Positions 29,545-51,056 of a stretch of DNA of 64,000 bases are shown in pieces. The notes beneath the pieces were generated by a model. It was not told the origin of the DNA. It saw only the letters and a program-made list of their open reading frames with translations, and did no database searches. The stretch is from the NCBI RefSeq assembly GCF_015500095.1, contig NZ_CP062983.1, positions 992,001 to 1,056,000 of the forward strand, in the 5' to 3' direction. The position numbers and the translations under genes are program-made. The first letter of the stretch is position 1. Each line of letters opens with the position of its first letter. Origin of the DNA: Phototrophicus methaneseepsis. Lineage in GTDB: Bacteria; Chloroflexota; Anaerolineae; Aggregatilineales; Phototrophicaceae.

Positions 29545-31239
29545 ATGGCAACTAAGCTGTTTATAAGCTATCGAAGTCTGGATTCAGCAAAAGTGGATTC
29601 TATTGTTTCCAGATTAAATTCACTCAAATCCCCTGATGGCTTAAAGCTCTACGAAATTTGGCAGGACAAGCTTAGCATTATTGTCGGACAAGATTGGTGG
29701 AAGGCAATCGTTAATGGAATTAATGAATGCGATGCCTTCATTTTTATGATTTCCCATGAGTCAGTCTCGAATATAAATTGTCAAGCGGAATTAGCTTATG
29801 CTCGCAAACGTAATCGGCCAATTATTCCCCTAGTGTTGGAAGATGAATATGGATACAACACTATAACGGGTAAAAATGATATTTCATTTTGGGAAGATAT
29901 TCCTTCCGAACTAAACAATAGCCGCTTTCAATTTTTATTTTTTGAAGGCGTAGCATCAATCCAGCAACTGGAGAAATCAATTGATCTTCTTGTGAAAGAA
30001 GATTTCCCAGATATGCCTGCACCAGAGCCATTGGACCCTCGCACGATAAACGTTTCTGAGGATTCATATCAAATTTATGATCGAGCCAATGATTTTGCTT
30101 GGCGTCTGGAATTTGCTACTGCAGAGAAGCTATTTCAAAAATTAGTTGACTGGAAAGATGAGTTGTTCTCTCATGAGGCATTAGAATGGATAATCCTCGT
30201 ACGCGAATATGAGAAAATTTTGCGTTTGCATCAGCACAAAAATACTAGATTCAAAGTTCCCACTTTGTTGAGTGATTATCTTAAGAAATTCCCTAAACCC
30301 TTTATTGAACTTTTTGATCCCAAGAATCTGAAGGATTACTATAGTTCGCAGATCAAAACGGAATTACTTTTCAAACCCTCCTTGAGTAACATAATGCCTC
30401 AGCCATTTGAGTGGTGTTATATACCACGTAATTTTGTGTCTTACTCCCAAGATTGGGATGATTACTATGCTTGTGACACGTCACAAGTATTGGAACCATA
30501 TTATATTTCTAAATTCCCCATTACATTGCATCAATTTCTTGAGTTTGTTATCGCTCGTAATGGATATTCACAAAAAGAATGGTGGGATGAAAATCGCCAA
30601 CCTTCAAAGTACAAATATTGTGATTACAATATATATGGAGATGTAGTAGATGGTGGCAAATTCTTTTCTATGGATAGATATTTAAAGTTTAGAGATAAGC
30701 TTGCTCATGCGAAAGCCACATTAGAAGAGATGAATCAATGGCTTATTCCAGCCACTGTAACAAGATTTGAAGCAATTGCGTTTTGCCGCTGGTTATCGGA
30801 GCTTTCAAGCAGTTTCATATTCGTCCCATCTGAAGCCCATTGGGTACTTGCGGCACAGGGAACATCAAGAAATAAATATCCTTGGGGTAATGAGTTTGAT
30901 GCACACTATTGTAATTCTGCCCTCTCAGGATACGGACAAGTTACACCAGTAACTACATTTCCGTACGGTGCTAGTGAATTTGGATTGATAGACTGTGTAG
31001 GAAATATTCCTGAATGGTGTGTTTTGGGGAGCGAAAGCAAACATGATGGATTCTCATTTGATTACTATGATTCGGGAAGATTTCATAACCGGGGAACAAA
31101 CTTTGCAGATTCAGAAACAGAGAACTTTCGATGTCTTTATCGTGGAAAAAGTAATGCTCCTATGCCGGAGGTGATAGCTGGTTTCAGAATTTGTACACCA
31201 GCAACAAAAGCATCTTCATTAGCAACTAGCTATCATTGA
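29545..31239 (+). CDS. TIR - formylglycine-generating-enzyme-like (FGE/SUMF1) protein
   Basis: The start is placed at the ATG at 29545, directly before the TIR fold ('MATKLFISYRS'). Residues 1-150 are a TIR domain that keeps the putative catalytic Glu (E82 in 'INCQAELAYA'), as in NAD-cleaving TIRs. Residues 270-560 are an FGE-sulfatase-type domain ('YYISKFPITLHQFLEFV', 'VPSEAHWVLAAQGT', 'YPWGNEFDA', 'FGLIDCVGNIPEW', 'GFRIC'). FGE-like domains in bacterial immune proteins are thought to act as binding or sensing modules. The gene is much more AT-rich than its surroundings and stands alone on the plus strand, suggesting a transferred defence gene. Confidence 0.85.
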   Translation: MATKLFISYRSLDSAKVDSIVSRLNSLKSPDGLKLYEIWQDKLSIIVGQDWWKAIVNGINECDAFIFMISHESVSNINCQAELAYARKRNRPIIPLVLEDEYGYNTITGKNDISFWEDIPSELNNSRFQFLFFEGVASIQQLEKSIDLLVKEDFPDMPAPEPLDPRTINVSEDSYQIYDRANDFAWRLEFATAEKLFQKLVDWKDELFSHEALEWIILVREYEKILRLHQHKNTRFKVPTLLSDYLKKFPKPFIELFDPKNLKDYYSSQIKTELLFKPSLSNIMPQPFEWCYIPRNFVSYSQDWDDYYACDTSQVLEPYYISKFPITLHQFLEFVIARNGYSQKEWWDENRQPSKYKYCDYNIYGDVVDGGKFFSMDRYLKFRDKLAHAKATLEEMNQWLIPATVTRFEAIAFCRWLSELSSSFIFVPSEAHWVLAAQGTSRNKYPWGNEFDAHYCNSALSGYGQVTPVTTFPYGASEFGLIDCVGNIPEWCVLGSESKHDGFSFDYYDSGRFHNRGTNFADSETENFRCLYRGKSNAPMPEVIAGFRICTPATKASSLATSYH

Positions 31240-31322: not shown

Positions 31323-32114
31323 TTAAATAAACAGCGCAGCGAACTGATGCGCGACCACATTAATCGTGCCGCCGTCGCCGCGCTCCAGCAGGCCTTTCAC
31401 CAGCAGCAGCGGACTATCCAGAATGATGCGGGCATAGCGTCCGAAGATGTCGGGTCGCACGACAATGTTCATCATGCCCCATTCATCCTCCAGTGTCAGA
31501 AAGGTCATCCCCTTTGCGGTCTGTGGCGACTGCGCGACACGGTTCTGCCCTGCCACCCGCACAATCGAATTATGGCCGCAATCCGCCAGTTCATAGCTGG
31601 CGAGGATGTCGCGCTGCCTCAGCCAGTCGCGGGCATAGCTCATCAGGTGGTCGCCCGTGTTGATGCCGGTCACGCTGTACTCCATGGCCTGCTCCTGCAT
31701 CACATGTTGCAAGGGCAGTTCCAGTTCTTCCGCCAGAAATTGCAGATCGAGTTCATCCTCGTCTACCTTGTAGAGTCCCGCCTGCCAGATCAGCTTGCGC
31801 CTCGGAATACCCCACGCATCAACCGCGCCCGCCTGAATCAGATTCTCGATTTTGCGTTCAGGGAGCCGTGTCCGTCGGCATAGATCATCGAGGCTGGTGA
31901 AACTGCCTTCCTGGCGTGCTGCAAGGATGCGCTCTGCGCTAGATTCACCGATGCTTTTCACCTGTGTCAGACCCAGCCGGATTGTTTTGGCGTCCAGTAC
32001 CTCGGTGTTGACTGTGCTGTGGTTGATGTTGACCTTCAGCGTTTTCACACCGAGCCGAGCCGCATCGTTGGTCATATACTCGGCGGAAATAGAATATGAT
32101 AGATCAGTGCCTGC
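31323..32114 (-). pseudogene. C-terminal fragment of a DnaE-type DNA polymerase III alpha subunit
   Basis: The fragment encodes the last 250 residues of a DnaE/DnaE2-like polymerase. It has a 'TNDAARLGVKTLKVNINHS' segment, a helix-hairpin-helix region ('IGESSAERILAARQEGSF', 'LDDLCRRT'), the linker, and the OB-fold ('SIVRVAGQNRV', 'MTFLTLEDEWG'). The catalytic PHP, palm and finger domains are absent. In frame, the sequence runs back into the terminator hairpin at 32106-32133, where it meets a stop. The first ATG is at 32075, but a stand-alone product is doubtful. It is a GC-rich remnant left between two AT-rich acquisitions. Confidence 0.82.
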
Positions 32115-32206: not shown

Positions 32207-35200
32207 CTATGGCGCAGCTTCACCATTATATTCGGCGACGGTTGGTTCTGCGACCAAAGGACGTACACTATTACCCAACGGATCCATGACATACAAATCG
32301 TAGTTATTCAAACGATTAGATGAGAAAATGATCTGCCTACCATCACGCGTCCAACTTGGCATAATGTTATTATCTGGTCCACTGGTCAATTGTATCAAGT
32401 TTGATCCGTCTACCTGTATGCGGAAAACCTGGATAGTGCCATCTGCTGTGATAGCATCAAAAACAAGGTTACTACCACTCGGAGAAATACCCAATGTCTG
32501 TACTGTACCTAATGTCGTAACACGTTGCGGATTGGCTCCGTTCATATCTGATTGATAGATGTCACGAACACCAGCAACCTCCATCACTAGAAATATATCA
32601 GATGGTATGGTTGGGATGTCTACAGCAATAATTGGAAGTTCCAGTACGCTACCCCTGCCAATGACCGAAACCACACTTGTGCTGACCCAACCTTCTGTTC
32701 CATCACTAAGCACAACCTTCACCCAGTAGCCGGTCTCATTGCGCCCAGTGACCTGAGTAGCCGTTTCACCGTAGTTTAATCGACCGACAAGTTCGAACCT
32801 ACGGCTTGGGCCACTGCGTACTGCCACATACGGTGACGCGATTGCTGTTGCTTGCCAACTCGGCGCAGGTCCACCAGTCGCTGGAATTACATCAAAGAAA
32901 TATTTGACATACGGAACATGGTCAGTACGGCAGACTGTCACGCGTACATGGTGGTTACGATTGACATCCGTGATAGTATAAGCTCCTAGTGGCCCACGCT
33001 GATTAACACGACTAAAACCGAAGTTTCCATCCTCTATAGGAGTATCACAGTAGATTGTTGGATCTATGATTTGGGAGGCATCTCTGCCAGTTGAGTCAAC
33101 GTTAGAAGGCCCAACAATTAATTCCCATGGATAGGTATCTGTTAGCGGATGCGATTGTCCTTCGGATGGTTCAGCGGGTGGGACAGGCGCTACTTCGATA
33201 ATGTACTGGGCGAAATCGGGCACTGTAATCTCACCAACAAAGTTAACCTGGGTAGCTGTTACAATCTCACCAGTTAGATCCACTGTGAAGGCCGGGTTCG
33301 TGACATCCAGATAACGAAACTGTGTTGTTGAAGCTTCCAATTGCCAAGTGGCAGGTTCATCAGTTGCACCCTCGGCAAGTGTACAAAGATCAATACGCAT
33401 AACATTGTCGCCCGCCGGGATATTTGTCAATGGGATAGTCGCTAGTTCTGTATGTGCGTCATCTATCACACCTACTTGATTCATATCCAACCCTCTCCCA
33501 TCGGCAGACAGCAGACGCTCATGTGCTGCCTGGCATAACGCATCACCTACGCTGTCCGTATTGGACATAGTCAATGACTCATCTAGCGGCGGATACTGCA
33601 CTGTCCATGTCTCTGTTTTGCCCCAGCGTTCTTGCTCATAATCGGTAGAGATAACATACCCTCGATAACTTGCATCTCCGAGTGCTGCTCCTAGAACGAC
33701 AAGGTTATCCATAACCGGGTACTTTTCGTTTGATGGTGGTGGATCCGTTACTGTAAGCTGTGGGCTATGGTCAATGGTGTAAGGGCCGAAAGTGTGAGCT
33801 TCTGACTGATCGTCTGTTAAGTTAATTTCCAAAAGCAGATAATAGATCCCACTAGGCAAACTCGCTGTATTGATCTGTTGTTCACCAATAAGATCACTGC
33901 TCGCATCTACGACTTTCGCCAACTTCGTACTTTGGTAGGTAAAGACAGTAGTCCAGTCAGCAACCATCGAAGCAGTAGGCCAGGTTGTGTCTGCTGCTTC
34001 GTTGGGCAGTTCTAAGTCATCTGGTTGCAGATGTAGTGACAGATTATAGCTTTCCAATGTCGCTGCCTGGATTCGTCCTAACACCATTTGTTGAGAATCG
34101 AGTGAGGTATTCTGCGGTGGTGTAGTGACCTCCACGACTGTGTCGTTGTTGATAGTGAAACTAGCGGTAATGGTTTGTGAAATATCGTCAGAAGGTTTCC
34201 ACAGCACGACATTACCCTGCTCGTCGTAAAGATATAGTGACAGACGCACCTCGTAGTCAGTGTTCTTGTAGTTCCATGTGTTCAGTTCGGCTAATGGCCC
34301 AGTACGTGGAATACAACCGGTTGCATCTGTGGGAGCTGTGCTGCAATATGTTTCTAGATTGACCGAATCTGACACCTGTGGTACTACCAACTTCCAGGCA
34401 TCTGGCCTTGCTTCATCACCAACTGGAGCGATTTCGACTGAATAGTAAGCGAAATTTTCAGCATCGGGCACATAGACTTCTCCAAGTAGTTCGGCTGCAT
34501 CACCAGACAGCCGCTGCCCAGGGATAATCGTGAGCACTGGATTTTCAGGGTAGCTAAGACTGATGGTCTTGGCGTCATGTGTTTCCATATCTAAGGTATG
34601 GTCCTCACAGCGATAGAGGCTGAGCTGGTAACTGCCTGAAGGGTAGTCATCTTCATTTACTGTAAACTGACCAAGGCTGTCAGCCGGCTTTGGATCAGCA
34701 GGACGCTCAATAAACGTCATATGGTTTGCCTGCTCTTCAGCACATAATGCTTCCAGACGTGCGTCCAATTCTGTATCATCTGAAAAAGTCTCACTATCAG
34801 GTGATACTAGGCGTGCTATCCAGTTGACGGATGTAGAGTCAGTTGGGGCAATAGTAACAAGCCAACGCGTAAAGCGTTCACCACCTACATAACCTGATAT
34901 TTCTACCAAGCCGCCAGATACGTCTCCTGTTGGTTGCACAATTTCGGCAAACGGCAGTGAGTAATTGTTGACGAGGAATACGGCTCGATCAGGTAGTGAC
35001 GGTGGTACTTCGTCGCCCTGGCAGTGGGTCAGCGCAAGTTCATAGAAACCATCCCCACTAAAGTCTCCATCCGTAGTAAATTGCCAGGTTTCTGTATTAA
35101 GTTGGACAAGTTCACCACCAGCACGAACTTCTCGTGTTTGCATTGCCTCCGTGCCACACAGGTTGGGCGGTGAGTCCCCATCTTCTGCTATTCCCACAAG

Positions 35201-37858
35201 GGATTCGTCATTTGCTTGTAATGGGTACCAGTCAGAAACTGACTGCTGATTATCATCAAGTTGGCGCACCTGGAGAACGTAACCTGCCCATACACCACCT
35301 TCTGCCTGACCGAGGATAGACACTGTCCCCGCGACAGCCATCTGTGTGTCTTCGCGATCTGAAATTACTAGCCCACCCCATTCTTCAATGGGGGCAATTT
35401 CGGCAGATGGTTCTATTCTGGCAAGTGTGAAGTTCTGCTGCATGGACTTACCAGGGATAGGTATATTCCCCTGACAGGTGGTGAGACGGACAATATAGTC
35501 GCCAGCTCCGTAATCATAGGGTGATATCTGTTCCCTGTAGAAGTTCGAAGCGTCAAACTTGTTGGAAAAATTGAGGTCGGCCTCATGCACAAAATCGGGA
35601 TGAGTGCCTATATAGCGACAAGGATTGTCATCTGGGCCACCAGGCGTTGGCAGGTTGGGAGAGCCAACAGCATCCAGTAACAGCCACTCCTCTGTATCCA
35701 TGTCTGCCCGTCGTACTTCGAGTACATAGTTGCTAACTGTGAATATTGTGTCGTCAATAAGGCTGCTACCAGACGCTGCACCATTAAGGTCAATAAAGCT
35801 TTCAACTCGATCCGCGTTATCGATCCCGTCCAATATGGCTCGCAGTGGGTTATATTCACCGCCAACGCGAGTATTGGAACGAGGCTCGGTCACTGCTGGA
35901 TCATAGTCGTATGTCGAGCAAGTGTGATTTTCCAATCTACCAATATCGCCAGGCAAAGGTAGAAGCAGGCGGGGCAAACGGACACCCACCGCGCCATCTT
36001 CCAGGCAAGCAGTTGCTTGTCTGGTGAGTACCGTGCGGACAGCATCAGCGCTATGTGTAACATCTGGATGATTGTAGAGCAGCGCGGCCACACCGCCCAT
36101 CAGTGGCGTGGCTGCTGAAGTCCCCTCGAAAGTGTAAGTTGATTCATCTGGGCGTTGGATTATTAGTGTGCCAAGAGTTGATATATCTGGTTTGACAACA
36201 CGATTTTGAGCGATGATGGTACCTGCCTGGTCGCCCTCACGGGGCCAGCCAAGCGCAAATTGACTGTAGTTGGAGCGTCCTGAATACCAGGCCAGACGGT
36301 TGGTGCTTGGATTATATGCACCTACCGTCAGGACTTCAGCCAGATCTCCCGGCACCGGCACAACTGGTTCCAGTGACTGACTGGTTGTGATATCGTACTC
36401 TGCAGGAATAGCTCCCTCGATGAACAACTCGAAAGCGGTCCCTGATATTGTATCTTTTCCCCGCCCTTGGCCGCCCATTGTTAAGCCAATGTAGATTTCA
36501 TTGTCATTGTAGGCATCAATTCTGCAATTATTGTCTTGTTGGCATTCCCCATACATTTGCGGAGCACCTGGTTTCCCGTTATCACGATAGATTGGGATGC
36601 GGATCGTGCTCTGCAGTTCTGTTAATAGCACGTCGCTGGGGATGGTCATAGCCTCAATAGGTGGAATTTCCCAGTTCCCCTCCATCACTCTGTCATCGTT
36701 TGGTGCCTGACTCATATCTGCAGTGTAATAGTTATTATCAAATGGACCAAAGAGATTCTGTACACGTAGCATAAGGTCATTGACCGGAACCTGTACCGGC
36801 CCATCACTCCCCGGCGCCTCTCGTGTAGGTGTACCATCCCAGGCAACGCGTACAGTGACTGGATGCGCGACATCAACTGGAACCATCAGCGTGTTCTCGC
36901 TCGACGCATTTCGATTGCGATCATCGAAATAATAGTCATTGCGAGAGCTATCGAAATAATAGTTATCGAAATAATAGCCAGCGCCAATGTTCCCTGCAGC
37001 GTTAACCCACAGGATACCTGTATCGGTCGCGCTAAGCACTGCCTCATAATAGCGTTCTGGCGCGAGGGTGTAAGCATTGGCAGCGTAAATAATAATGTCT
37101 ACTGGTGGATTTAGTGCCATCAACTGCTCGACGGCTTGCTCGAATTCATCTGCATTTTGTGAGGCAACAGCGAGGTAATACTCAGCATCAGGGGCAATCT
37201 GCGTCAGGACTGTTAGTACATCTGTGCCGTGAGATCCCTCTCCTGGATCTGGGGAGAGTAATTCCACATAGCTACTAGAGATAGCCTGATAAACTGAAAA
37301 GCCAGCATCGATGACACCGACACGTACCCCGCGACCAGTGTAACCTGCAGAATGCCATGCCGAGATAGGCAATCCATATTGTTCCCCAATGCCAGTGTTT
37401 ACCAGTTCGTTCAAATCAATTGATGGAATGATTGGCACACCCCATTGAGGTGGTTGGCAATCGGCTTGTACTATATGATCTCTCGAAAAAGCCACTATCT
37501 GTTCATCGACTATTTCTTCATCGCCAATGGGCAGCAGGAAAAGCTCTGGCTCTTCTTTAACAGAATGACGTTGGGTTTTCTCAATAATCCAGTATTCACC
37601 ATTGGGGGTCTGCCCAACTACCCATAAAGTGACGGGATCACCGTTCATATCAATAGCATGATGAACGGCTAAATATTCAGGTTGAAGATCGTACTCTGCG
37701 CCGATGGCATTGTATAACTGCACATCACGATCTATAGGAAAACTGCAGTTGGAAGGAGCATATACTGCTTGTGTTGATGGTACGAAGTTTATTAAAAATA
37801 TAAACGTTACCATCACGAGGAATAGTTTGTGCTTCTTAAATAACCTTCTTTGTTGCAT
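32207..37858 (-). CDS. Giant exported subtilase (S8) with repeated beta domains, SH3 and TolB-like propeller
   Basis: This 1883-residue protein has an N-terminal signal peptide (residues 6-31, cleavage near 'STQA'). The S8 domain is complete: D184 ('GVIDAGFS'), H210 ('GSHGTDV'), oxyanion Asn 290 ('VNAAGN') and S581 ('FEGTSAATP'). A Tyr/Phe/Asp-rich repeat sits at 295-312. Residues 700-1650 are a series of repeated Ig- or beta-sandwich-like domains, each with Cys-containing loops and 'GSYQLSLYRC'-type strands. An SH3-type domain ('VAVRSGPSRRFELVG') and a TolB/DPP6-like half-propeller ('DIYQSDMNGANPQRV') end the chain. A GGAAGGG ribosome-binding site precedes the ATG. It is probably secreted or surface-held and proteolytic; the substrate is unknown. 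Confidence 0.88.
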   Translation of the reverse strand: MQQRRLFKKHKLFLVMVTFIFLINFVPSTQAVYAPSNCSFPIDRDVQLYNAIGAEYDLQPEYLAVHHAIDMNGDPVTLWVVGQTPNGEYWIIEKTQRHSVKEEPELFLLPIGDEEIVDEQIVAFSRDHIVQADCQPPQWGVPIIPSIDLNELVNTGIGEQYGLPISAWHSAGYTGRGVRVGVIDAGFSVYQAISSSYVELLSPDPGEGSHGTDVLTVLTQIAPDAEYYLAVASQNADEFEQAVEQLMALNPPVDIIIYAANAYTLAPERYYEAVLSATDTGILWVNAAGNIGAGYYFDNYYFDSSRNDYYFDDRNRNASSENTLMVPVDVAHPVTVRVAWDGTPTREAPGSDGPVQVPVNDLMLRVQNLFGPFDNNYYTADMSQAPNDDRVMEGNWEIPPIEAMTIPSDVLLTELQSTIRIPIYRDNGKPGAPQMYGECQQDNNCRIDAYNDNEIYIGLTMGGQGRGKDTISGTAFELFIEGAIPAEYDITTSQSLEPVVPVPGDLAEVLTVGAYNPSTNRLAWYSGRSNYSQFALGWPREGDQAGTIIAQNRVVKPDISTLGTLIIQRPDESTYTFEGTSAATPLMGGVAALLYNHPDVTHSADAVRTVLTRQATACLEDGAVGVRLPRLLLPLPGDIGRLENHTCSTYDYDPAVTEPRSNTRVGGEYNPLRAILDGIDNADRVESFIDLNGAASGSSLIDDTIFTVSNYVLEVRRADMDTEEWLLLDAVGSPNLPTPGGPDDNPCRYIGTHPDFVHEADLNFSNKFDASNFYREQISPYDYGAGDYIVRLTTCQGNIPIPGKSMQQNFTLARIEPSAEIAPIEEWGGLVISDREDTQMAVAGTVSILGQAEGGVWAGYVLQVRQLDDNQQSVSDWYPLQANDESLVGIAEDGDSPPNLCGTEAMQTREVRAGGELVQLNTETWQFTTDGDFSGDGFYELALTHCQGDEVPPSLPDRAVFLVNNYSLPFAEIVQPTGDVSGGLVEISGYVGGERFTRWLVTIAPTDSTSVNWIARLVSPDSETFSDDTELDARLEALCAEEQANHMTFIERPADPKPADSLGQFTVNEDDYPSGSYQLSLYRCEDHTLDMETHDAKTISLSYPENPVLTIIPGQRLSGDAAELLGEVYVPDAENFAYYSVEIAPVGDEARPDAWKLVVPQVSDSVNLETYCSTAPTDATGCIPRTGPLAELNTWNYKNTDYEVRLSLYLYDEQGNVVLWKPSDDISQTITASFTINNDTVVEVTTPPQNTSLDSQQMVLGRIQAATLESYNLSLHLQPDDLELPNEAADTTWPTASMVADWTTVFTYQSTKLAKVVDASSDLIGEQQINTASLPSGIYYLLLEINLTDDQSEAHTFGPYTIDHSPQLTVTDPPPSNEKYPVMDNLVVLGAALGDASYRGYVISTDYEQERWGKTETWTVQYPPLDESLTMSNTDSVGDALCQAAHERLLSADGRGLDMNQVGVIDDAHTELATIPLTNIPAGDNVMRIDLCTLAEGATDEPATWQLEASTTQFRYLDVTNPAFTVDLTGEIVTATQVNFVGEITVPDFAQYIIEVAPVPPAEPSEGQSHPLTDTYPWELIVGPSNVDSTGRDASQIIDPTIYCDTPIEDGNFGFSRVNQRGPLGAYTITDVNRNHHVRVTVCRTDHVPYVKYFFDVIPATGGPAPSWQATAIASPYVAVRSGPSRRFELVGRLNYGETATQVTGRNETGYWVKVVLSDGTEGWVSTSVVSVIGRGSVLELPIIAVDIPTIPSDIFLVMEVAGVRDIYQSDMNGANPQRVTTLGTVQTLGISPSGSNLVFDAITADGTIQVFRIQVDGSNLIQLTSGPDNNIMPSWTRDGRQIIFSSNRLNNYDLYVMDPLGNSVRPLVAEPTVAEYNGEAAP

Positions 37859-38381
37859 TGAATTCCCTTCCTCGAATCTTAGGTAAAACGCAAAATAAAC
37901 ATGATGATATTACTTGAGTAATGAAAATTACTTACGATAAATAATACGTAAGTAATCAAGTGTTAGATATAAAAATCTGCCAAACTAGATTACAAATTGA
38001 TAACGATGTGATTCAGAACCTCAGCACTTCCTGATGATGGCTGAAACCGGCTACTCAGATAGCTTTATTAAGATTAAAATTTATAAATTGTGAATTTATG
38101 TTGGTACATCAAAGCTATATTTATATTAAACTTGCCTATTATCACAGTATACATAATAATCAGGTTTATACAAATCTATGGACACCAAGCATTTTGAACT
38201 CACAACTCCCTTATTTGACTTATTCTGTATAAAAATATAGTTGACAATATTCAATTGTTATCCAAAGTTGATTATAAAAATAACGAGTAATTAAAAATAT
38301 GTTGTTATGTTTTATCGTTTGATATTACACTGAAGTTACTTAAGCTTGAGGTTTAAAACTTTACAATTAGAGGGGGAGCAC
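37859..38381. promoter_or_regulatory. AT-rich divergent intergenic region
   Basis: About 520 bases, strongly AT-rich, separate the divergent subtilase and secreted-protein genes. No gene is seen. The region must hold promoters for both directions; several AT-rich hexamers are possible and none can be chosen with confidence. Confidence 0.45.
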
Positions 38382-39560
38382 ATGATATTTCTGCAACAAT
38401 ATTCCAGCCGCAATATATTATGTGTCGTTTTGTTATTGTTTTTGATTACTAAGGGAGTGGTCAGCGCTCAAACTAGCGGACATATTGTCGGTCGAGTTGA
38501 TTACTGTAGTGTTCAAGCCGGAGATGGTAATTATCGGGCCCAGGAGTACTATCAGTTCTCGAGTTCAGATGGCAATGTGCGTGACCTTTATGCTATTGAC
38601 TCAAACGATGGTTTTTCGGTTTGTCGTCATGTTTATAGCGAAAATCACGACATTGTATACTACGCGGTAGGTAATTATGTGCAGTCTGTCAACTGGAGCG
38701 ACCTCACGAATATTCTCGGTACGGATCAGTGCCTGAACGCATTGTATGATCCAACACAGGCTCCGATGGGAGTACTTACAAGTGTAGATAGTGTAGAGAT
38801 GTCTGCAGAGAATGATTTAGCGCCATTGTTTGCGGGTGACTTACTGCGTCCGGCGTGGCATGGGGCATTCCCCCAGCCTGGTTATAATCGTGTTATTGAT
38901 ATTGATATACTAGGTGATATGCCGCATAAATTTACCTTTAGTGTGGATTTCGCATCAGTAGTTCCATCTGCTGGTGGCCCCCTAGATCTGGACACAATTG
39001 AAGAAATGGATACACCTGATGAATTGGCCTGGCTACGCGATGCGCTTTATCATTTTTATGCAACTGCGCTCGGGAATGAATGGCAGTTGGCTGCGTACCA
39101 AGAGCGTTGTGGTGCAGTGAACCCGTGTGTGGATAATCGCTCGGACATTCGAATTACCTTTGAAGCAATTGAACAACATCATCTGATTCAGTTACTTATA
39201 ACACCAAATATTATGGAGAGAAGTGGTGTATTGGATGTAACGGTCCTTGCCGAGCCCTTCGAGGTGGTACCAAGGGGATATGGCATTCTGGCTGGAGCAG
39301 ATTTTTCTCCTACACAAATAGAGACTGAGTTAGACAAGTGGAATATTGTGGCAGTAGGAAGCGGATCAGATGGTTGGAAAACTTTTGTTTTGCAAGATCC
39401 AGATCATACGAATCATGCACGACTTTGGTCGGTAACCCGTTCGAACTCGGATGAGAATTTTGTAACAGATCAGATTGAAGAATTGAGTACTTCAGGGTCA
39501 GATGTAATCTGCGATCCTGCGACTTTTCTACCTGCGTGGACGGGATATGTTCACCCATGA
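38382..39560 (+). CDS. Secreted protein of unknown function
   Basis: The ATG at 38382 follows a GAGGGGGAG ribosome-binding site. The 392-residue product starts with a signal peptide ('MIFLQQYSSRNILCVVLLLF' then 'LITKGVVSAQ', cleaved after the Ala). The mature part is acidic, with paired Cys ('RVDYCSVQ', 'FSVCRHVY', 'RCGAVNPCVD') that may form disulfides. No enzymatic motif is seen. The stop overlaps the start of the inactive subtilase gene (ATGA), so the two products are probably partners. Confidence 0.78.
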   Translation: MIFLQQYSSRNILCVVLLLFLITKGVVSAQTSGHIVGRVDYCSVQAGDGNYRAQEYYQFSSSDGNVRDLYAIDSNDGFSVCRHVYSENHDIVYYAVGNYVQSVNWSDLTNILGTDQCLNALYDPTQAPMGVLTSVDSVEMSAENDLAPLFAGDLLRPAWHGAFPQPGYNRVIDIDILGDMPHKFTFSVDFASVVPSAGGPLDLDTIEEMDTPDELAWLRDALYHFYATALGNEWQLAAYQERCGAVNPCVDNRSDIRITFEAIEQHHLIQLLITPNIMERSGVLDVTVLAEPFEVVPRGYGILAGADFSPTQIETELDKWNIVAVGSGSDGWKTFVLQDPDHTNHARLWSVTRSNSDENFVTDQIEELSTSGSDVICDPATFLPAWTGYVHP

Positions 39561-41539
39561 TACCCCGACATCTTCTTAGAATACTGGTAAGTCTGGTAAT
39601 TCTGAGCTGTGCAATCAATGTAAGTTATGCACAAGACGATAATAATCAGCCGTCCTGCCAATCAAGTTTACGGACCTACGATTATTTGCTCGACGCACCA
39701 GAGCTAGCTCCTATACGTGCTTGGCATGAGGCTGGTTATTGTGGGCAGAACTTGACGATTGGAATCTTAACAACACGCTTGCCGATCAATAACATGGTTG
39801 CTCCTTTGCTTGGTGAGATACCGTTGTTAGCAATTAACCGGAATGGGTTTCTTCCCGATGGTGAGACTGATTCAGCTAGCATCACATCGGTAAGAGTTTC
39901 CAATCAAATTATCTTGCTCCATACCATTGCCCCGGCTGCTCATTTATATCTCTACAGCGTACCGCAGGATGTTGTTAACCCTGCAGCCTTAGCGGATGAG
40001 CTCACTAAAGGCGCAGCAGTGTTGCAGAGTTCAACACTTCCGGGTGCCTCAGACTTCCCCCCAGTACAAGTTATTGCCAATCTAGTTGCCAATCCATTGC
40101 TAGGGTTAAACGATACTTTCGATCTACTGAACGACTTCATGGCAGATGAAAATGTACTCTGGCTCAATGCAGCCGGAGAGTTCGGACACAGCCATATCTA
40201 CCTGGAGTTGACTTCAGAATCCATAAATCCATTTACAGACTGGGTAGTGCTTCCCCCTGGTTTCTTGCGCGTGCCAGATAGTGGTTACACGATAGATAAC
40301 CAATTCATTCCTTTTACCAGGCTTGACAAATCTGCAGATGTTATTTTGAATCTGCTATGGACAACTCCCGGTGAATTCACCCTATATGTCGTAGATGATC
40401 CAATCACTCAGAATCGCATTCCGGCACCGGTTGAGATACCCAGGCCTGGTATTACATTCGCACGAGTGGAACTGAATGCTGAAGAGGATACCTTCTATGT
40501 TGCGATAGAACATTCCGGCCGAGACAACATACAGGAAGAAGGTGAAGCGCATCTATACAGCTATAATGCAGTTACAGCATTAACGGACAATAGCGTTTCT
40601 ATACCACCTCCGAATGATTACGCGGGTGCAATCACAATTGGAGCATTGTGGCCTGATGAGACCCCGGACAATCTACAACCTGCCTCGGGCCGTACTCGCG
40701 ATAAACCAGAGATCATGGCCTATGGTAGCTTTGGAGAGAATGATGAAACGAGCAGTGGATACGCAACCCTCGTTACTGCTGGCGTGGCAACCATTTACTA
40801 TAGTAGTAATCTGGGCATCAGTCGGGCAGCCTTGACTGAAAAACTAATCCCCACCAGCACATCGGCACAGTTGCGCATTGAACCTGTACCATATGATTGG
40901 CAGCAATGGGTGATCATTCCAATCATTTGTCTTATGATCGGGTTGGGATTACTTATAATAGGCTTGCTTCGTAGACGACTTTTGCGCCAATCAGCAAAAG
41001 CAGCACTACAAAAGATCGCTTCTCTCGAGAACACTTGTAAAGTAAATATAGAGAAAACTCGCCTGACGATTGTGTTTGATCCTAGCTTCATCCGACTTCT
41101 TCTAATTATCGTACAGTTTAAACCGCGATTGCTAGTAGTCACGGAATTTTCGAGGCAGATACCAGTGAACCAAGATATTAAACTAACCACTTTTCCCAGT
41201 CCGAAACCAGCTAACTCACAAGAGCTAGCCATTTCATCGGAGATATCGCCAATAAAGGAGATTCTCGGTATCTTTATTTTAGTGTTGCGTATCCTCCAGC
41301 GTATTCTAGATAGGCCTACTACCAGTGGTGAAATATCCGGCATTAAAGAAGAGAAATCTTATTTGCAGTTCAACTTATGGATGAAACGATTTCCTCGGCT
41401 GAGAGAGAACGAAAACCTAGGCTATATATATGAAGGGATACAATGGGATAATCCGACTGAGCCAGGCAATGTGCGGGTAATAATCACCAGCCGTCTGGGT
41501 GAAGTGTTTAATCGTGAGCTAACGCCTGAGGTACAGTGA
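39557..41539 (+). CDS. Membrane-anchored, catalytically dead subtilase homologue
   Basis: The start is the ATG overlapping the previous stop. A signal peptide (1-25, ending 'VSYA') leads to a subtilase-like fold that aligns with the neighbouring active enzyme: 'WHEAGYCGQNLTIGIL', 'LHTIAPAAHLYLYSV', 'VLWLNAAGEFG', 'GYATLVTAGVATIYYS'. The catalytic Asp is Thr 72, the His position is about Arg 113, the oxyanion Asn is Glu, and the Ser is Gly. A single transmembrane helix ('WVIIPIICLMIGLGLLIIGL', near 453-473) is followed by about 180 residues with Arg-rich start, probably cytoplasmic. It is likely a receptor or regulator rather than a protease. Confidence 0.8.
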   Translation: MIPRHLLRILVSLVILSCAINVSYAQDDNNQPSCQSSLRTYDYLLDAPELAPIRAWHEAGYCGQNLTIGILTTRLPINNMVAPLLGEIPLLAINRNGFLPDGETDSASITSVRVSNQIILLHTIAPAAHLYLYSVPQDVVNPAALADELTKGAAVLQSSTLPGASDFPPVQVIANLVANPLLGLNDTFDLLNDFMADENVLWLNAAGEFGHSHIYLELTSESINPFTDWVVLPPGFLRVPDSGYTIDNQFIPFTRLDKSADVILNLLWTTPGEFTLYVVDDPITQNRIPAPVEIPRPGITFARVELNAEEDTFYVAIEHSGRDNIQEEGEAHLYSYNAVTALTDNSVSIPPPNDYAGAITIGALWPDETPDNLQPASGRTRDKPEIMAYGSFGENDETSSGYATLVTAGVATIYYSSNLGISRAALTEKLIPTSTSAQLRIEPVPYDWQQWVIIPIICLMIGLGLLIIGLLRRRLLRQSAKAALQKIASLENTCKVNIEKTRLTIVFDPSFIRLLLIIVQFKPRLLVVTEFSRQIPVNQDIKLTTFPSPKPANSQELAISSEISPIKEILGIFILVLRILQRILDRPTTSGEISGIKEEKSYLQFNLWMKRFPRLRENENLGYIYEGIQWDNPTEPGNVRVIITSRLGEVFNRELTPEVQ

Positions 41540-41615: not shown

Positions 41616-42842
41616 TTATTGGTGATATAAGGCACGCAACAATGCTAAGTCGTGTTCACTCATGCTGGAGTCAGATCCAAAGAAGGGGAACATAATATCG
41701 CCACGGATGTCACTGTGGCGTAGACCGAGTGCGTGGAGCAGTTCGTGCAGCATTATCCCTGGTGGATTGGGAGCAGTTTCAATAATACGCACAAATCCCC
41801 GATAATCGTAGGCGTCCACTTGTGTGGAACTTGAATTCTGACGCACTGCAATAATCCAACCACAGCCTAATACTTCCTCTGGTAGTGGGCAATCTTGCAT
41901 GGTATACGTAGTTTCGCTTACTACTTCGACAATAATATCTGCCTGAGCAGGGGAGGGTACGCGTGTAATCGAAATTGCTTGCTGCACCTGTAAAAGTGCT
42001 GAGCTTAAGGCTATGTCCCATTCATCGTCAAGTGAACGAGCATAGACATGGATGGGTAAGCGATAAAAGCGCATATTTACTGGATTGAAGGTGTCGTTTG
42101 GCTGGACTAAAACCTGATCTGCTATCCCCCCACTTGTTTGAACAGACAAAACACTGCTCGGCGTTAAGGTTGGTAAAGGTTCGATTCGTGTAATCGCTGT
42201 CGGTGCAACAGCGATGGACAGTTCTGTCGCTCTTGCCTCTGGGCTTAGCGTAAAAGTTGGCTGTTTCATAGTGCCAACAGCAGATATTGGAGTAGGTAGC
42301 GGGATCGGGATTCCCCATCGATTTAACAACATCATCAGCAACACGATTGTTACGCTCACTAATGTTAGTGCTAGGGTAAGCTGCCGTGCCGGGGAGCTTC
42401 GGTAGCGAGCGCGGCGCTGCATGCGTCGTTGCTGGCGAGCTCGTGCCTTGCCAATTTTGATATTTTTCGCCTTCGGTTCATAACTCTCCTGGTAACGCGC
42501 AACCAGGTTCTGGTAACGGCCCTGATGATGGGTCATTACGTAGACAATTGCTTCGTGTGCAAGTGCGTACGCAGTTTCGCGTGCTGCTCGATCTGTTGAT
42601 GTGCAATAGATCATGTCATACGCTTGAAAGCGTAATGCTTGTAGGTCTAGGGATTCTTCTGAGGAGAGATATTGATATTCAATATTTGGTCTGGGATGTG
42701 GCGAAACATTGGTCAAAAATGTATTGCTTGCTGAATATGAGGTCTGGATAGTTTCGAGCAAGTTAAGAACAATCAGTGGTTCCCCACGTGCGAGATATTG
42801 TTCGGCTTGGGCGTATAGTGTACTTAGTTTCCTGTCAGTCAT
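41616..42842 (-). CDS. Membrane-anchored metzincin-type metalloprotease
   Basis: This is a 408-residue protein. A cytoplasmic helical N-terminus (1-150, TPR-like at the start, then very basic) leads to one transmembrane helix ('LTLALTLVSVTIVLLMMLL', near 155). A Pro/Thr-rich linker follows, then a C-terminal M10-like protease with the zinc motif 'HELLHALGLRH' (366-376) and a Met-turn in 'GDIMFPFFG'. The active site would be outside the cell. It is convergent with the inactive subtilase gene. No propeptide Cys switch is obvious. Confidence 0.83.
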   Translation of the reverse strand: MTDRKLSTLYAQAEQYLARGEPLIVLNLLETIQTSYSASNTFLTNVSPHPRPNIEYQYLSSEESLDLQALRFQAYDMIYCTSTDRAARETAYALAHEAIVYVMTHHQGRYQNLVARYQESYEPKAKNIKIGKARARQQRRMQRRARYRSSPARQLTLALTLVSVTIVLLMMLLNRWGIPIPLPTPISAVGTMKQPTFTLSPEARATELSIAVAPTAITRIEPLPTLTPSSVLSVQTSGGIADQVLVQPNDTFNPVNMRFYRLPIHVYARSLDDEWDIALSSALLQVQQAISITRVPSPAQADIIVEVVSETTYTMQDCPLPEEVLGCGWIIAVRQNSSSTQVDAYDYRGFVRIIETAPNPPGIMLHELLHALGLRHSDIRGDIMFPFFGSDSSMSEHDLALLRALYHQ

Positions 42843-44014: not shown

Positions 44015-45007
44015 TTAGAACAAACAATCTGCCCACGCTTTCACAGTATCTTTTCCAGCAAGTTTGTAAAATGCATTGATGTCCTTGCCCTGCGGCACAT
44101 GAATACATCGTGTCGCTTGAGAGAGTTTGCTGAGTTGGTCAGCGGCCCGTTGACCTGCCTGGTCATCATCCATGCAGATGAGGATGCTGGGTGCAGAGAT
44201 GAACTTGGGGAACCAGCGCGGATTGATATGTTTGTGGGCTGCACTGCCGAGGGCGACTGCAGAGATCAGCCCTTTGCCAACCTGCCGAGCAATGAGCGCA
44301 TCGAACTCGCCTTCCGTGAGCAAGATAGGCACTCCAGGCTGGAGCTCATCAGCCAGATAGAGGCTGCCTCTGATGTTGCCACCGCTGACTTGTTGATAGC
44401 GTTGTTGGCCTGCGGCGCGCCGCACCTTGATGCCCCAGATGGTATGGCCTGTCATCCAGGGGATGGTGATGCCACAAGGTACTTTCAAGCCAAAGAGAGC
44501 TTTCCATTCTTTGTGATGACCCGGAATATATCCCAGCCCCGCTTCGACAATGGACTTCTCAGTCAATCCACGCTCTTCTTCCAGATAGCGCCAGGCCGCT
44601 TGGCCTTTTTCACTGTAGAGGGTTTCCATCGCTAGATAAGCCACGTCGCGAGCTGCTTTTTGCCAGACTTCATTAGGCGGCTCAGATAGGGATCGCAGTT
44701 TTGACTTCTGCTTAGGCTTTTGCTGTTGAACTTGTGGCAGATCACCGGCAGCTAGCTGTTGGCAAGCATCCTGAAAACGCAACCCGTGATAAGCTTGCAA
44801 CCAATCGATAGCATCGCCCCCACGATTACACTTACCGAAGCAATGCCAATGATCAGCGTAGATCACCAGTGAGAAGCCTTTTTCCTCATGATGAAGTGGG
44901 CACTTGTAGGTGCTGTACGTGTCATTGTGGTATTTTGGCTGGCCCAGATCGCGCTCGATGAGGTCGCGACAATCAAGATAGGCTTTGAGTTGTTCAACGT
45001 CAATCAT
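44015..45007 (-). CDS. CHC2 zinc-finger / Toprim primase-like protein
   Basis: This 330-residue protein has a CHC2 zinc finger ('YKCPLHHEEKGFSLVIY', 'HWHCFGKCNRGGDAIDW') near residues 34-68. A Toprim domain near 205-300 carries the Glu ('LLTEGEFDALIA') and the DxD ('ILICMDDDQAGQRA'). The central RNA polymerase fold of DnaG is shortened. Such proteins prime or assist plasmid and phage replication. It lies downstream of the DUF3987-like gene on the same strand, and together they resemble a split primase-helicase module. Confidence 0.85.
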   Translation of the reverse strand: MIDVEQLKAYLDCRDLIERDLGQPKYHNDTYSTYKCPLHHEEKGFSLVIYADHWHCFGKCNRGGDAIDWLQAYHGLRFQDACQQLAAGDLPQVQQQKPKQKSKLRSLSEPPNEVWQKAARDVAYLAMETLYSEKGQAAWRYLEEERGLTEKSIVEAGLGYIPGHHKEWKALFGLKVPCGITIPWMTGHTIWGIKVRRAAGQQRYQQVSGGNIRGSLYLADELQPGVPILLTEGEFDALIARQVGKGLISAVALGSAAHKHINPRWFPKFISAPSILICMDDDQAGQRAADQLSKLSQATRCIHVPQGKDINAFYKLAGKDTVKAWADCLF

Positions 45008-45126
45008 AGTGAGCTCGCTTTTGAATTATGGCAGTGGCAATGCCATTTGCCGAAATGACAGAATGTGGCATTATGGCAAACCCACTGCCGAATATCAGAT
45101 ACTAACCGTTATCTTCAGATATTTTC

Positions 45127-46767
45127 TCAGGCATCCTCTTCACTGAGGATATAGCCTGTGGCGCTGCGTCCACGTGTATTATTTCGAGCCTGTGCTTCGA
45201 TTGTCCCCGATTCAAGCAGAGCATCGACGGCGGCATAGGCCTCTTTGCGGCTCTTGATGCCCGCACCGCGATGAATCTCGCGCTTGGTCGGTGGCTGATC
45301 TTTTTGAGCGCGAGCGATGAAATCGAGGATCTTCTGCTCATTTTTGGTATCTTGCCCCACATTCAATTCAGCCAGGAGCCGATGGGCCGACGCGCGATAC
45401 TGCTCGGTCAGCATCTGAGCGCGTGCCCAATGAGCAAGCGAGATGCGTGGCGCATTTTTTGCACCCGCTTCGACCCAATCCATGCCGGTCAGAATGAGAG
45501 CGATCTTCATGGTCAGCACCGGAAAGCGACCGTAGTTACCGCGCAGGCGCTCGTCTAAACCACGTCGAGGATCGGTCAGCTCATGCATAGCTGCTGCATA
45601 GGCGTTGAAATGCGTCATGACTTCGGGGTCCATGAGTGCGTTAACTGTAGGAAGGTTTACTGATTCTTCATTGCCATAAAGAGCGTCCCATTCGGGCGGT
45701 GTCGGAAACGCCTGATGGATCTTCAGCAGCCGAGATTTGAGGTTTTCCATGGCCTGATTCAATTCGGGTGAGGGATTGCTGACGATGTAAGGGACATCTT
45801 TTTCTTCTGGGGTCAGCGTCAGGATGCGGGCCATGAGGCCACTTTCCCACTCGGCATCGCCCATGTAGCGGGCCAACATGGCTGGCGTGGTAGCGCCAAT
45901 CAGTGAGAGGGCAGGATTATAGATGATGAGCTTGCCATCACCACGCAGTTCTCGTTCCATCCTGTCGGGCGCATCGAAGAGCTGCATGAGTGCTTCGGCA
46001 TGACCTTCCATATATTTCTTGGGAATAAGGATCTTGCTGGCCTCATCGATACTCATCCCGCGTTGACCTGCAAAGCGAGTGCCCTGTTCTTCCAGTTTTT
46101 TCTCCACAGGCAACAACTGCTCATAGTTGCTGGGTTTCTGTCCAGCTAGTTTTGCCATGAGCATCTCAGGTGTGGTTGTCTCAGGCAGCAGCAGATGCTG
46201 AAAAGTACTCCGGACCAGGTTGGTGATGGCTTTCAAGCCGGTGGATTTATGGTAGTAGGTCGTCGGAGCAACCCATAAGAAGAAAAGGTTGGGATAGATG
46301 TCATCGAAGCTGAGGCGAAGTACACAGCGGCGAGCGATGGCGAGGCCGACTGCCCACAGCGGAGCAGATTCCAGGAAAATGCGTGGCGTCATGGGCGATT
46401 TCTGCGCTAGCCAGTGGGTGCAGTCCTGGTGGAAGCGACCTACTTTCTCAGCTGATTGAATGAGTGCATCATCGAGTTGAGCCTGTTCCGGTAGCGGCGG
46501 TACATACAATTCATCTGGCTTTTTCTTTTCAGGAGCAGGCGGTTCTGTTCTGGGATCGATGTACATGATCTGCTGCATGATCTCGTGATCCTGGGTGGCG
46601 ATATCTTGCAGCGTCTGCCAGCCAGCCGGATTATGCTGTGGATCGAGCGTTTTTAAGAGGAGTTGGACAACAGGACTCAGTTCCAGGTTGTCGGGAACAT
46701 CCATTTTGGATAGGACCCGTCGAAAAGCATAGGCGTCGTTAGGGGATAAAGATAGTTGGGTAGGCAT
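45127..46767 (-). CDS. DUF3987-like replication protein
   Basis: The start is placed at the ATG at 46767, which has GGAGA seven bases upstream; an open frame continues further without a site. The 546-residue product resembles DUF3987 proteins, which usually partner primases. It has 'ESAPLWAVGLAIARRC', then 'NLFFLWVAPTTYYHKSTGLK' where family members carry a P-loop-like region, 'GMSIDEASKILIP', 'LSLIGATTPAML' and 'WESGLMARILTLTPEE'. The P-loop position here reads 'APTTYYHKST', with the K-S/T kept but glycines lost. A winged-helix C-terminus ends the protein. Confidence 0.72.
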   Translation of the reverse strand: MPTQLSLSPNDAYAFRRVLSKMDVPDNLELSPVVQLLLKTLDPQHNPAGWQTLQDIATQDHEIMQQIMYIDPRTEPPAPEKKKPDELYVPPLPEQAQLDDALIQSAEKVGRFHQDCTHWLAQKSPMTPRIFLESAPLWAVGLAIARRCVLRLSFDDIYPNLFFLWVAPTTYYHKSTGLKAITNLVRSTFQHLLLPETTTPEMLMAKLAGQKPSNYEQLLPVEKKLEEQGTRFAGQRGMSIDEASKILIPKKYMEGHAEALMQLFDAPDRMERELRGDGKLIIYNPALSLIGATTPAMLARYMGDAEWESGLMARILTLTPEEKDVPYIVSNPSPELNQAMENLKSRLLKIHQAFPTPPEWDALYGNEESVNLPTVNALMDPEVMTHFNAYAAAMHELTDPRRGLDERLRGNYGRFPVLTMKIALILTGMDWVEAGAKNAPRISLAHWARAQMLTEQYRASAHRLLAELNVGQDTKNEQKILDFIARAQKDQPPTKREIHRGAGIKSRKEAYAAVDALLESGTIEAQARNNTRGRSATGYILSEEDA

Positions 46768-46878
46768 TTTTGTCTCCAGGCTGGCCGCAGTTGGGCCAGG
46801 TAAAATTGGCAAAGTGAAACACAGGTCATGGCAAAACATGACATCGAGCTTGACAAATTCAGTTGCAGCGGGCTGGAG

Positions 46879-46921
46879 ACTGTGATAAAGTTTAAGTGTC
46901 TGATTTAAACATTGTCACAGT
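46879..46921. promoter_or_regulatory. Symmetric dyad, possible operator or centromere-like site
   Basis: The arrangement is ACTGTGA - 4 bases - GTTTAA - 9 bases - TTAAAC - 4 bases - TCACAGT, perfectly symmetrical in arm length and spacing. It lies between the ParB-like gene and the DUF3987-like gene, upstream of the latter. The symmetry suits a dimeric DNA-binding protein such as the ParB-like product. Confidence 0.55.
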
Positions 46922-46926
46922 TCCGT

Positions 46927-46959
46927 GCCCATCCAGTTTTTGGTGGGCGTTTTTATTTT
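46927..46959 (+). terminator. Plus-strand intrinsic terminator-like hairpin
   Basis: The stem GCCCATC/GGTGGGC (46927-46933 with 46942-46948, one G-T pair) is followed on the plus strand by GTTTTTATTTT. No plus-strand gene ends here, so it may close a short antisense or counter-transcript beginning near the dyad. Confidence 0.5.
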
Positions 46960-47026
46960 CAGGTGGTGCGCGTACTTTCATTCTGATCATGCTAGTCATT
47001 TCTTTTATAGGTCAACGTGCGTTGAC

Positions 47027-48217
47027 TTATCTGTTTTCTTGAAGTTGGTTTTGAATGCGTGTTAAAAATGAAATTGTGCTTTCTAACCTTACACATGCCA
47101 TTGATACACTATTTTCCTGTTCTAGGAGCCTTTGGATAAAGTCCCCTTCATCATCCTCTGACATTTTTTGCATAGAGCGGACAAACCCACGGATATGAGG
47201 GGATATCTCTCTAGTTAGATCTACTGTGTCGTCGTCCATACCATGCTTAACAATGTCGTGTACCTGCCTTCCTGTTAATCCAAACTGAATGATGTGTTGG
47301 ATCATTTCCATATGTGTTTCTGGTGGTAGTTGTAAAACAGGACGTAGGATGTACTCATCCAAATTATTCCGATCAGCAAGTTCCATTGCTTCATCAGATA
47401 ATTTCAGCAGGTCTTTATATTGATTGAATCGCTGTTTGGTAACTCCACCAAGTGATGAGTGCATGGTTTCAGCTTGGCCTTTTGGAATGCGGAGTTCAAG
47501 AGCCTGCCGGTAAAAATCAGGCGGCACAGGCCCTTCTGGCATCGGATAACCATGCACATAGAGCAGAAGTAGCGCGGCTTGTCTTGCCATTGCAATGGCT
47601 GAGAGTCCCGAGCGGGCGGTGTTCTCTTTGGCCTGGCGAAAAGCCGACGCGGATTCGTTGGGGATGACAATACAGGGAATCATGCCGTCGCTCTCGTAGC
47701 CGGAGATGAAATCTCGTAGAATCCAGGTGGCCCAGTAGCGGCGTTCGCCTGTCTCGATGCGATACTGCCGCGTGATACCTTGCGAGACATCGACGACCGT
47801 TAGCGGGTTAACCTGCCCATCATCGCGGATGGTGACAGCCAGATTGACCAGATCATGCACGAGCTGTTCTTCAGGTGAGAGAGGCGGTAGCTCTTCGCTG
47901 TTGTCTTCTTCTGGATTGCCAAGAAGATCGAGCACATTGGAGAAGGGGCGTCCTTGTTGGCGCGCTGCGAGCTGTGCAATCTGGATCAGTTCGCGCATGG
48001 CCTGTGAGGGCGTCACCTGTCCTGCATGAAAGGCTTGATAGATGCGGTCAGGTAACACACGGCGCGGCTGCAGCGGATCAGGACGAACGAGTTCCAGCAG
48101 GATGTATTCCACCTTGAGACCCTCATCCTGAAAGAAGGCCATGTCGCCACCGCCGAGCATATCGGCGGTGACGTTATCGAGCAAGGATGTGTTGATTTCA
48201 CGTTTCTTGCGAGCCAT
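47027..48217 (-). CDS. ParB-like nuclease/partition-family protein
   Basis: This is a 396-residue protein. The N-terminal ParB/Srx-like fold contains 'LVRPDPLQPRRVLPD' near 45, an inserted acidic loop (125-150), then 'VNPLTVVDV' and 'YRIETGERRYWATWIL' (the GERR CTP-binding-type motif) near 160-180. It continues 'KENTARSGLSAIAMARQAAL', the helix preceding the DNA-binding HTH. The C-terminal part is helical. It overlaps closely with parA (two bases apart). Together they should partition the element at cell division. Confidence 0.87.
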   Translation of the reverse strand: MARKKREINTSLLDNVTADMLGGGDMAFFQDEGLKVEYILLELVRPDPLQPRRVLPDRIYQAFHAGQVTPSQAMRELIQIAQLAARQQGRPFSNVLDLLGNPEEDNSEELPPLSPEEQLVHDLVNLAVTIRDDGQVNPLTVVDVSQGITRQYRIETGERRYWATWILRDFISGYESDGMIPCIVIPNESASAFRQAKENTARSGLSAIAMARQAALLLLYVHGYPMPEGPVPPDFYRQALELRIPKGQAETMHSSLGGVTKQRFNQYKDLLKLSDEAMELADRNNLDEYILRPVLQLPPETHMEMIQHIIQFGLTGRQVHDIVKHGMDDDTVDLTREISPHIRGFVRSMQKMSEDDEGDFIQRLLEQENSVSMACVRLESTISFLTRIQNQLQENR

Positions 48218-48219
48218 GG

Positions 48220-49047
48220 CTAGCCTGCTTTCTGACGTGACATCTGACGAACAAGATTCGCGACCAATTCGCCATAAGCGACACTGGCAGCGGCTTTGGG
48301 ATCGTAGTTGAAGACACTCAGGTGATTATGATGAGAGTAGGAGACAGCTTCATTCTGAGGGATCACGCCACAGAGCAGTTGCCCAAGCACGTTGTGTGAT
48401 TTCATCTCGTCGAGAAGCTGCGTATGGCCTTTGACACGCCGATCCATCTTGGTGACGAGGATGCCACTGACGTGCAGGCTCGGGTGCCGCCAACCTTCAC
48501 GAATGTCGTTGATCTTGCCGATGACACTCAGCAAACCAACTGTCTCCAGATAGCGGGGCTCCACGGGAACAATGGCGTCAGTAGCGGCAAGTAGCCCCAT
48601 CTCTGTCATCAGTGAGAAAGAGGGGCGGGTATCGATCACGATGGCGGCATAGTGAGGTGCGATTTTTGAGAGGGGATCTGCTAGACGGTAGGGCGCTCCT
48701 GCCGTGCCGGTTAATTCTCGTTCGGCACCTTCCAACAGGGGAGATGCAGGTAGCACATGCAGATCCGCATCCCACTCGCTTTGAACGATACAATCTGCCA
48801 GCACATTAGGTGCTTCTCGGCGATCTGCCATCAGCACGGTGTAGAGGCTGTTGTCGGTGCCGAAGTCATTACGACCGGTGGTGACCAGAGAAGCGTGTCC
48901 CTGGCTGTCGGTGTCGATGAGGAGCACACGACTATTGCGAGCGTTGAAGTGCCGCAGGATGTGAACGAGACCGAGTGCGATATTCGTTGCAGACATGGAT
49001 TTGCCCACGCCGCCCTTGTGGTTCGTCAGTACAATAGAACGAGTCAT
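48220..49047 (-). CDS. parA: ParA partition ATPase
   Basis: This 275-residue deviant Walker ATPase has 'NHKGGVGKSMSATNIALGL' (the K-G-G-V-G-K-S/T signature) at residues 8-26, 'VLLIDTDSQGHAS' near 40-52 and 'AIVIDTRPSFS' near 133. There is no N-terminal HTH, so it is a type Ib/Soj-like ParA, and repression, if any, would be by the ParB-like partner. It is two bases upstream of that gene. It would drive segregation of a plasmid or large integrated element. Confidence 0.93.
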   Translation of the reverse strand: MTRSIVLTNHKGGVGKSMSATNIALGLVHILRHFNARNSRVLLIDTDSQGHASLVTTGRNDFGTDNSLYTVLMADRREAPNVLADCIVQSEWDADLHVLPASPLLEGAERELTGTAGAPYRLADPLSKIAPHYAAIVIDTRPSFSLMTEMGLLAATDAIVPVEPRYLETVGLLSVIGKINDIREGWRHPSLHVSGILVTKMDRRVKGHTQLLDEMKSHNVLGQLLCGVIPQNEAVSYSHHNHLSVFNYDPKAAASVAYGELVANLVRQMSRQKAG

Positions 49048-49100
49048 GATAGTACCTCCGCATAACGCAGTGATTTAACCAAAACCGCCTGTGAAACCAA

Positions 49101-51041: not shown

Positions 51042-51056
51042 TGGAATTGTTCCTGA

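Follow-up and report, generated by a model that had tools for sequence, protein, structure and literature searches.

What does a subtilase do that has lost its catalytic residues, sits in the membrane and lies next to an active enzyme of the same family? The question is raised by the gene q in the window, as we call the whole 64,000-nucleotide stretch of DNA analysed here. Immediately upstream of q is u, encoding a secreted protein, and on the opposite strand lies n, encoding a secreted S8 protease (Table 1). A reading of the sequence alone had proposed that the q product is a pseudoprotease receptor that could report extracellular ligands or protease state to the cell interior.

A subtilase without its catalytic residues

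Codon log-odds for q are positive in frame +1 only, the other five frames containing 19 to 54 stops, and codon statistics mark both u and q as coding. By BLASTP, q matches the adjoining protease n with an E-value of 1e-7, and a search of its own genome with a family profile (17 rows, q itself among them) covers it at E 1e-94. A search with Pfam PF00082 did not reach q itself; both of its TIR-bearing relatives, described below, exceed the gathering score of 21.8 bits, with 26.7 and 34.2 bits. When q is aligned with 16 additional relatives from the class, its catalytic domain can be recognised throughout; the WHxAGY.G and LWxNAAG blocks, the TxGA strand and the KP(D/E) motif are among the parts identified.

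The Asp-His-Ser triad and oxyanion Asn of S8 enzymes are absent from q, where the family alignment places T72, R113, G401 and E208, respectively. The claims that q resembles its S8 neighbour and that all four residues are replaced are thus borne out. In n, the corresponding residues are intact (D184/H210/N290/S581).

The predicted structure has the subtilase fold, on which the sequence-only reading depended. The AlphaFold2 model of q, derived from a six-row alignment, is of low confidence, with a mean pLDDT of only 46. Its top Foldseek matches are nonetheless all S8/S53 proteins (E 2.7e-4), and CspA is among its structural matches. Over about 220 residues, the model aligns with subtilisins and PatG at VIA-align Z 16-17, so that the fold is confirmed as far as such a model allows. 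Family S8 is defined by sequence homology and the subtilisin fold, and q has both: by sequence, tree and predicted fold, it is confirmed as a subtilase.

Table 1. Features of the pseudosubtilase locus and its surroundings (positions in the window)
Feature	Position	Strand	Basis
q, membrane-anchored pseudosubtilase, 660 aa from ATG	39557..41539	+	ORF, homology, tree, fold comparison
Signal peptide of q, about residues 1-25, ...INVSYAQ	39557..39631	+	hydropathy, sequence
Pseudosubtilase ectodomain of q, model residues 38-445	39668..40891	+	VIA-align Z 16-17, family alignment
T72 of q, catalytic Asp position	39770..39772	+	family alignment
R113 of q, catalytic His position	39893..39895	+	family alignment
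E208 of q, oxyanion Asn position	40178..40180	+	family alignment
G401 of q, catalytic Ser position	40757..40759	+	family alignment
Transmembrane helix of q, residues 452-470, then RRRLLR	40910..40966	+	hydropathy
Cytosolic tail of q (predicted), 190 aa, no recognisable domain, TIR absent	40967..41536	+	domain and profile searches
u, secreted partner with signal peptide, 392 aa; a homologue lies upstream of each TIR receptor	38382..39560	+	profile and sequence comparison
Shine-Dalgarno-like GAGGGGGAG 5' of u	38370..38378	+	sequence
ATGA overlap, q start/u stop	39557..39560	+	sequence
n, active secreted protease of family S8, SH3 and PD40 repeats at its C-terminus, divergent from u-q	32207..37858	-	domains, alignment, tree
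Defence-island genes: DruE-like and DpdE/DrmD-like helicases, DrmMI-like methylase, NERD-helicase	15-15150
Replication/partition set: Rep_trans, resolvase, ParA, ParB-like, DUF3987, CHC2-Toprim primase	44015-52485

The transmembrane (TM) helix of q is strongly hydrophobic (KD 2.96) and is directly followed by LRRRLLRQSAK. The presence of five K/R and no D/E within 15 residues indicates that the C-terminus is inside, and on these residues the tail should be cytosolic. The helix had been described as a gain; it is present, but the gain itself is not clear-cut, since several active S8 relatives also have a C-terminal hydrophobic helix. Five loci of our set (L005, L007, L012, L016 and L017) encode active S8 proteins in which such a helix is followed by segments that, by eye, are FHA-like or zinc-ribbon-like; these proteins may constitute another outside-in link.

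Relatives with a TIR domain and a conserved partner

Single-protein searches retrieved no close relatives and first suggested that q and u were orphans. Profile searches, run over 98 genomes of the family and then over 154 genomes of the order, changed this picture. The first true counterpart of q came from the family set, on contig JAHDWN010000008.1 of the metagenome-assembled genome (MAG) Anaerolineae bacterium CHL11 (G422); its frame of 778 aa matches residues 1-479 of q at a BLASTP E-value of 4e-25. Across the 154 genomes of the order, only one other full-length receptor accompanies these two, in a genome of another family (G466): a protein of 784 aa that matches q at E 4e-38 and its G422 counterpart at E 3e-109. 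Built from the two relatives, a profile retrieves exactly three such ectodomains from the same genomes (G466, G422 and q), all beside u; its other matches, among those listed, are other TIR proteins and one secreted pseudosubtilase in G422. At L069 7855-9588, G422 encodes a secreted pseudosubtilase of about 580 aa with His replaced by Thr and Ser by His, an SH3-like C-terminal part and neither TM helix nor TIR.

Both relatives consist of a signal peptide, a pseudosubtilase domain, a TM helix and a TIR domain. Their C-terminal domains match Pfam TIR_2 (E 9e-19 and 2e-18) and the CRISPR-associated TIR Cat1, that of G466 also matches the TIR of Toll-receptor-related 2 in the PDB, and both keep a Glu aligned with the Glu of Cat1 and other bacterial TIRs. 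Hydropathy and positive-inside residues give q and both relatives the same arrangement of signal peptide, ectodomain and single TM helix with a predicted cytosolic C-terminus, most clearly in q.

The window copy departs from its relatives in its tail. Neither Pfam nor the TIR-receptor profile detects in q the intracellular TIR domain of Toll/TLR-type receptors. Of the 'cytoplasmic-side domain' proposed earlier, the 190-aa inside-oriented tail stands on its positive-inside residues, and the recognisable output domain does not. We also considered whether the tail could be the juxtamembrane region of the TIR receptors; past about residue 525 no homology to that region is detectable (hhalign probability 1%; shuffled Smith-Waterman p 0.2-0.9) and the assignment is unsupported. 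For the window copy, the receptor reading is weakest here, with no TIR and a tail that shows no detectable homology.

The Shine-Dalgarno sequence of u is strong, and the ATGA overlap suggests translational coupling of u and q; the proposed coupling of q to a secreted unknown fits both this overlap and the u homologue that also precedes each TIR receptor. The G422 homologue is 25% identical to u over its whole length and shares a conserved Cys and a C-terminal CDPxxFLPAW motif. At pLDDT 42, the structure model of u was not of sufficient quality to search for its fold. The u profile finds u in four of the 154 genomes of the order (the window's, G422, G436 and G466), and in a phylum-wide sample of 400 genomes none besides the window's own. 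A weak match in G180 (L021) was dropped, as it sits in an unrelated large secreted protein.

The suggested search for conserved pairs of secreted unknown and pseudosubtilase thus returned a u homologue directly upstream of the receptor in G422 and in G466. In G422, a WD40 protein and an active S8-WD40 protease precede u and the receptor, all co-directional and with the u and receptor frames overlapping. G466 repeats the layout of the window, with an active S8-propeller protease on one strand and u, then the receptor, on the other; a small fragmentary frame separates the last two. The G436 contig has u immediately after an S8-WD40-FGE fusion and ends before any receptor. The module, that is, u directly upstream of a receptor with an active S8 of the n clade beside it, is therefore complete in the window, G422 and G466, and represented by u and protease in G436. 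G466 also has a second u copy, split over two frames (L100 6708-7640), next to another S8-WD40 gene and followed by unrelated genes; it is an older, broken copy of the module.

In the window, the module is flanked by a defence island with Dru/Dpd/DISARM-like genes and by mobile-element genes (44-52.5 kb), the latter including a replication and partition set that looks like an integrated plasmid-like element. The patchy occurrence of the module would fit transfer with mobile DNA. Directly 3' of q is a convergent gene for a membrane-anchored M10-type metalloprotease (41616-42842). On the other side of n lies an orphan C-terminal HHH/OB piece, DNA polymerase III alpha-like (31323-32075), and beyond it a gene for a TIR fused to an FGE-sulfatase (C-type-lectin fold) domain (29524-31239). 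The architecture of this fusion is like that of DGR-diversified putative antigen sensors, a role attributed to FGE-type domains (PMC10907252). We considered a link between this gene and q; the genome of the window contains 32 TIR domains, so that nearness is weak evidence.

Descent of the dead fold

Maximum-likelihood analysis of 63 S8 domains places the three pseudosubtilase receptors in one clade (100/99). A second clade (100/99) unites n and the active S8s encoded at the G422, G436 and G466 loci. The two clades are mutually nearest, joined at only 96/69, a topology that would fit an ancient duplication after which the active and the dead copy remained linked.

Arg stands at the catalytic His position in all three receptors, a position that is His in each of 51 active relatives. 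Further residues common to the receptors are absent or rare among those 51 relatives: C62, L203 and N353, like R113, occur in none, Y414 and P350 each in one. From such receptor-specific residues common to all three members, the dead fold appears to be under selection of its own. The remaining sites are less uniform. The Asp position reads T/S/A across the three receptors, the Ser position is Gly in q and Ala in G422 and keeps its Ser in G466, and the oxyanion Asn is kept in both G422 and G466. Replacement of all four residues is therefore special to the window copy; the change common to the receptor group is the loss of Asp and His.

Could q be a decaying receptor, its TIR lost and the remainder drifting without function in the window genome? 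Its branch is the longest of the 63 (1.67), it has changed all four catalytic positions where its relatives keep one or two, and the TIR is missing. Against this, the frame of 660 codons is intact with coding-like codon use, the signal peptide, TM helix and ATGA coupling to an intact u are preserved, and R113, C62, L203, P350, N353 and Y414 are retained; we find decay quite unlikely. Alternatively, the former active site of q may have kept or gained a different enzymatic activity. There are unrelated S8 branches whose site is altered yet conserved (the S/DEG/N/S group below), so a changed site does not necessarily imply loss. Among the three receptors, however, the Asp and Ser positions vary and only the Arg is constant, which makes such an activity highly implausible.

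A third alternative is that q acts in trans outside the cell as an inhibitor, chaperone or membrane dock of n, its tail serving only as an anchor, in analogy with iRhom for ADAM17 or the pseudosubtilases controlling CspB. The conserved linkage with the sister protease clade would agree with such a role, as would a q without recognisable intracellular domain and the occurrence elsewhere, in G252, of a degenerate S8 beside an active one. An intracellular TIR, carried by two of the three members, would be superfluous for a purely extracellular regulator, and we regard this alternative as unlikely.

The 63-domain tree requires six independent departures from the D/H/S triad, so S8 degeneration is not rare in these bacteria; with at least six cases in the sampled set, pseudosubtilases are probably under-annotated. 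The pair in G252, a genome of the window's genus, consists of a degenerate S8 (D/D/D/R; L054 6478-9534) and, directly after it, an active S8 with a similar domain layout (9708-12704), and is independent; L052 contains a second degenerate S8 (D/E/D/R). In G466, a protease-clade S8-WD40 protein (L102 5867-10165) has Asp and His replaced (S, T) beside intact copies, a recent and separate loss. The S/DEG/N/S proteins (L075 291-3407, L104 9914-11734 and L105 356-1990), from a Chloroflexota genome, a Richelia MAG and a Methanofilum MAG, form one clade (100/99) in which Ser is conserved at the Asp position, Glu ('DEG') occupies the His position and both Asn and Ser are kept, possibly a subtilase branch with another triad. 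Six loci (L059, L060, L062, L067, L068 and L077) encode two tandem S8 domains in single proteins, the first much diverged. We considered these N-terminal domains as pseudosubtilases of the q type; those with alignable sites keep D, H, N or GTS and therefore do not belong to that type.

A candidate signalling module and known systems

On balance we think it probable that the secreted protease, the secreted partner u and the TLR-like pseudosubtilase receptor form one signalling module, with q as the receptor component. The receptor reading proposed at the outset is much strengthened by the TIR domains of the two nearest relatives, the conserved u and the sister clade of active proteases, and falls short in that q has no recognisable output domain. 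Also counting against it, only three receptors occur in 154 genomes, and one of these (G422) comes from a MAG.

The module would be one that is rare in Anaerolineae and carries signals from outside the cell to its interior. After duplication of a secreted subtilase, one copy would have lost Asp and His, the latter to Arg, and become the ectodomain of a single-pass receptor. This ectodomain, together with u, is likely to bind a peptide outside the cell, a product of cleavage (for example, cleaved u) or the active sister protease n. Binding would switch the receptor to another state, transmitted through the single TM helix, and in two of the three receptors drive NAD-consuming or scaffold signalling by the intracellular TIR. 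The 190-aa tail of the window copy may signal through another partner, or the output may have been lost. A more specific version, which we find rather doubtful, is an independently evolved relay reminiscent of the cascade of proteases upstream of insect Toll: an extracellular protease of the same origin would generate or control the signal, the dead copy would serve as TM receptor and TIR as output. To our knowledge, nearly all bacterial TIR proteins studied so far are cytosolic. The module, if it works as proposed, would be a route feeding extracellular information into bacterial TIR signalling, and would offer a testable account of how pseudoprotease receptors arise, by duplication of a secreted protease.

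How does this module compare with known systems? None of q, u and n matches the PADLOC 2023 defence-system models at E 1e-4, and no pseudosubtilase-TM-TIR protein was found in the open full-text literature. The active subtilases anchored in the membrane, such as the mycosins and the Anaerolineae S8-TM-FHA and S8-TM-zinc ribbon proteins (L005, L007), also place S8 outside, followed by a C-terminal TM helix and a cytosolic appendix; they differ in having intact catalytic residues, no u partner that we could see and other cytosolic domains.

The NTPase-centred conflict systems contain inactive trypsin and caspase domains along with TIR, FGS and S8 (Kaur et al. 2020, PMC7159879). They resemble our locus in combining degenerate peptidase domains with TIR and FGE/FGS in multicellular-type bacteria, but are mainly intracellular and built around an NTPase. 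No MoxR/GTPase/STAND core component is present in the u-q operon, an nSTAND1-WD40 gene lying 16 kb away, and the text of Kaur et al. (PMC7159879), with a single S8 mention, contains no pseudosubtilase-TM-TIR protein.

In Clostridioides difficile, the soluble pseudosubtilases CspC and CspA sense germination signals (PMC6636752, PMC12880746). There, too, dead S8 paralogues of an active S8 (CspB) are used as signal-sensing modules, as q beside its sister protease n may be. However, the Csp proteins occur in soluble form in spores and act on CspB, whereas q is secreted, membrane-anchored by a single pass and linked to u, with TIR in its relatives.

The overall plan of the G422 and G466 receptors, an extracellular sensor, one TM helix and an intracellular TIR, is that of animal Toll/TLR receptors. 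The TLR ectodomain is an LRR domain, in contrast to the pseudosubtilase found here, q has no TIR, and we claim no common descent of the whole protein. With this difference in ectodomain, q looks like a bacterial counterpart of the animal Toll receptor, of which the window copy lost or never had its TIR.
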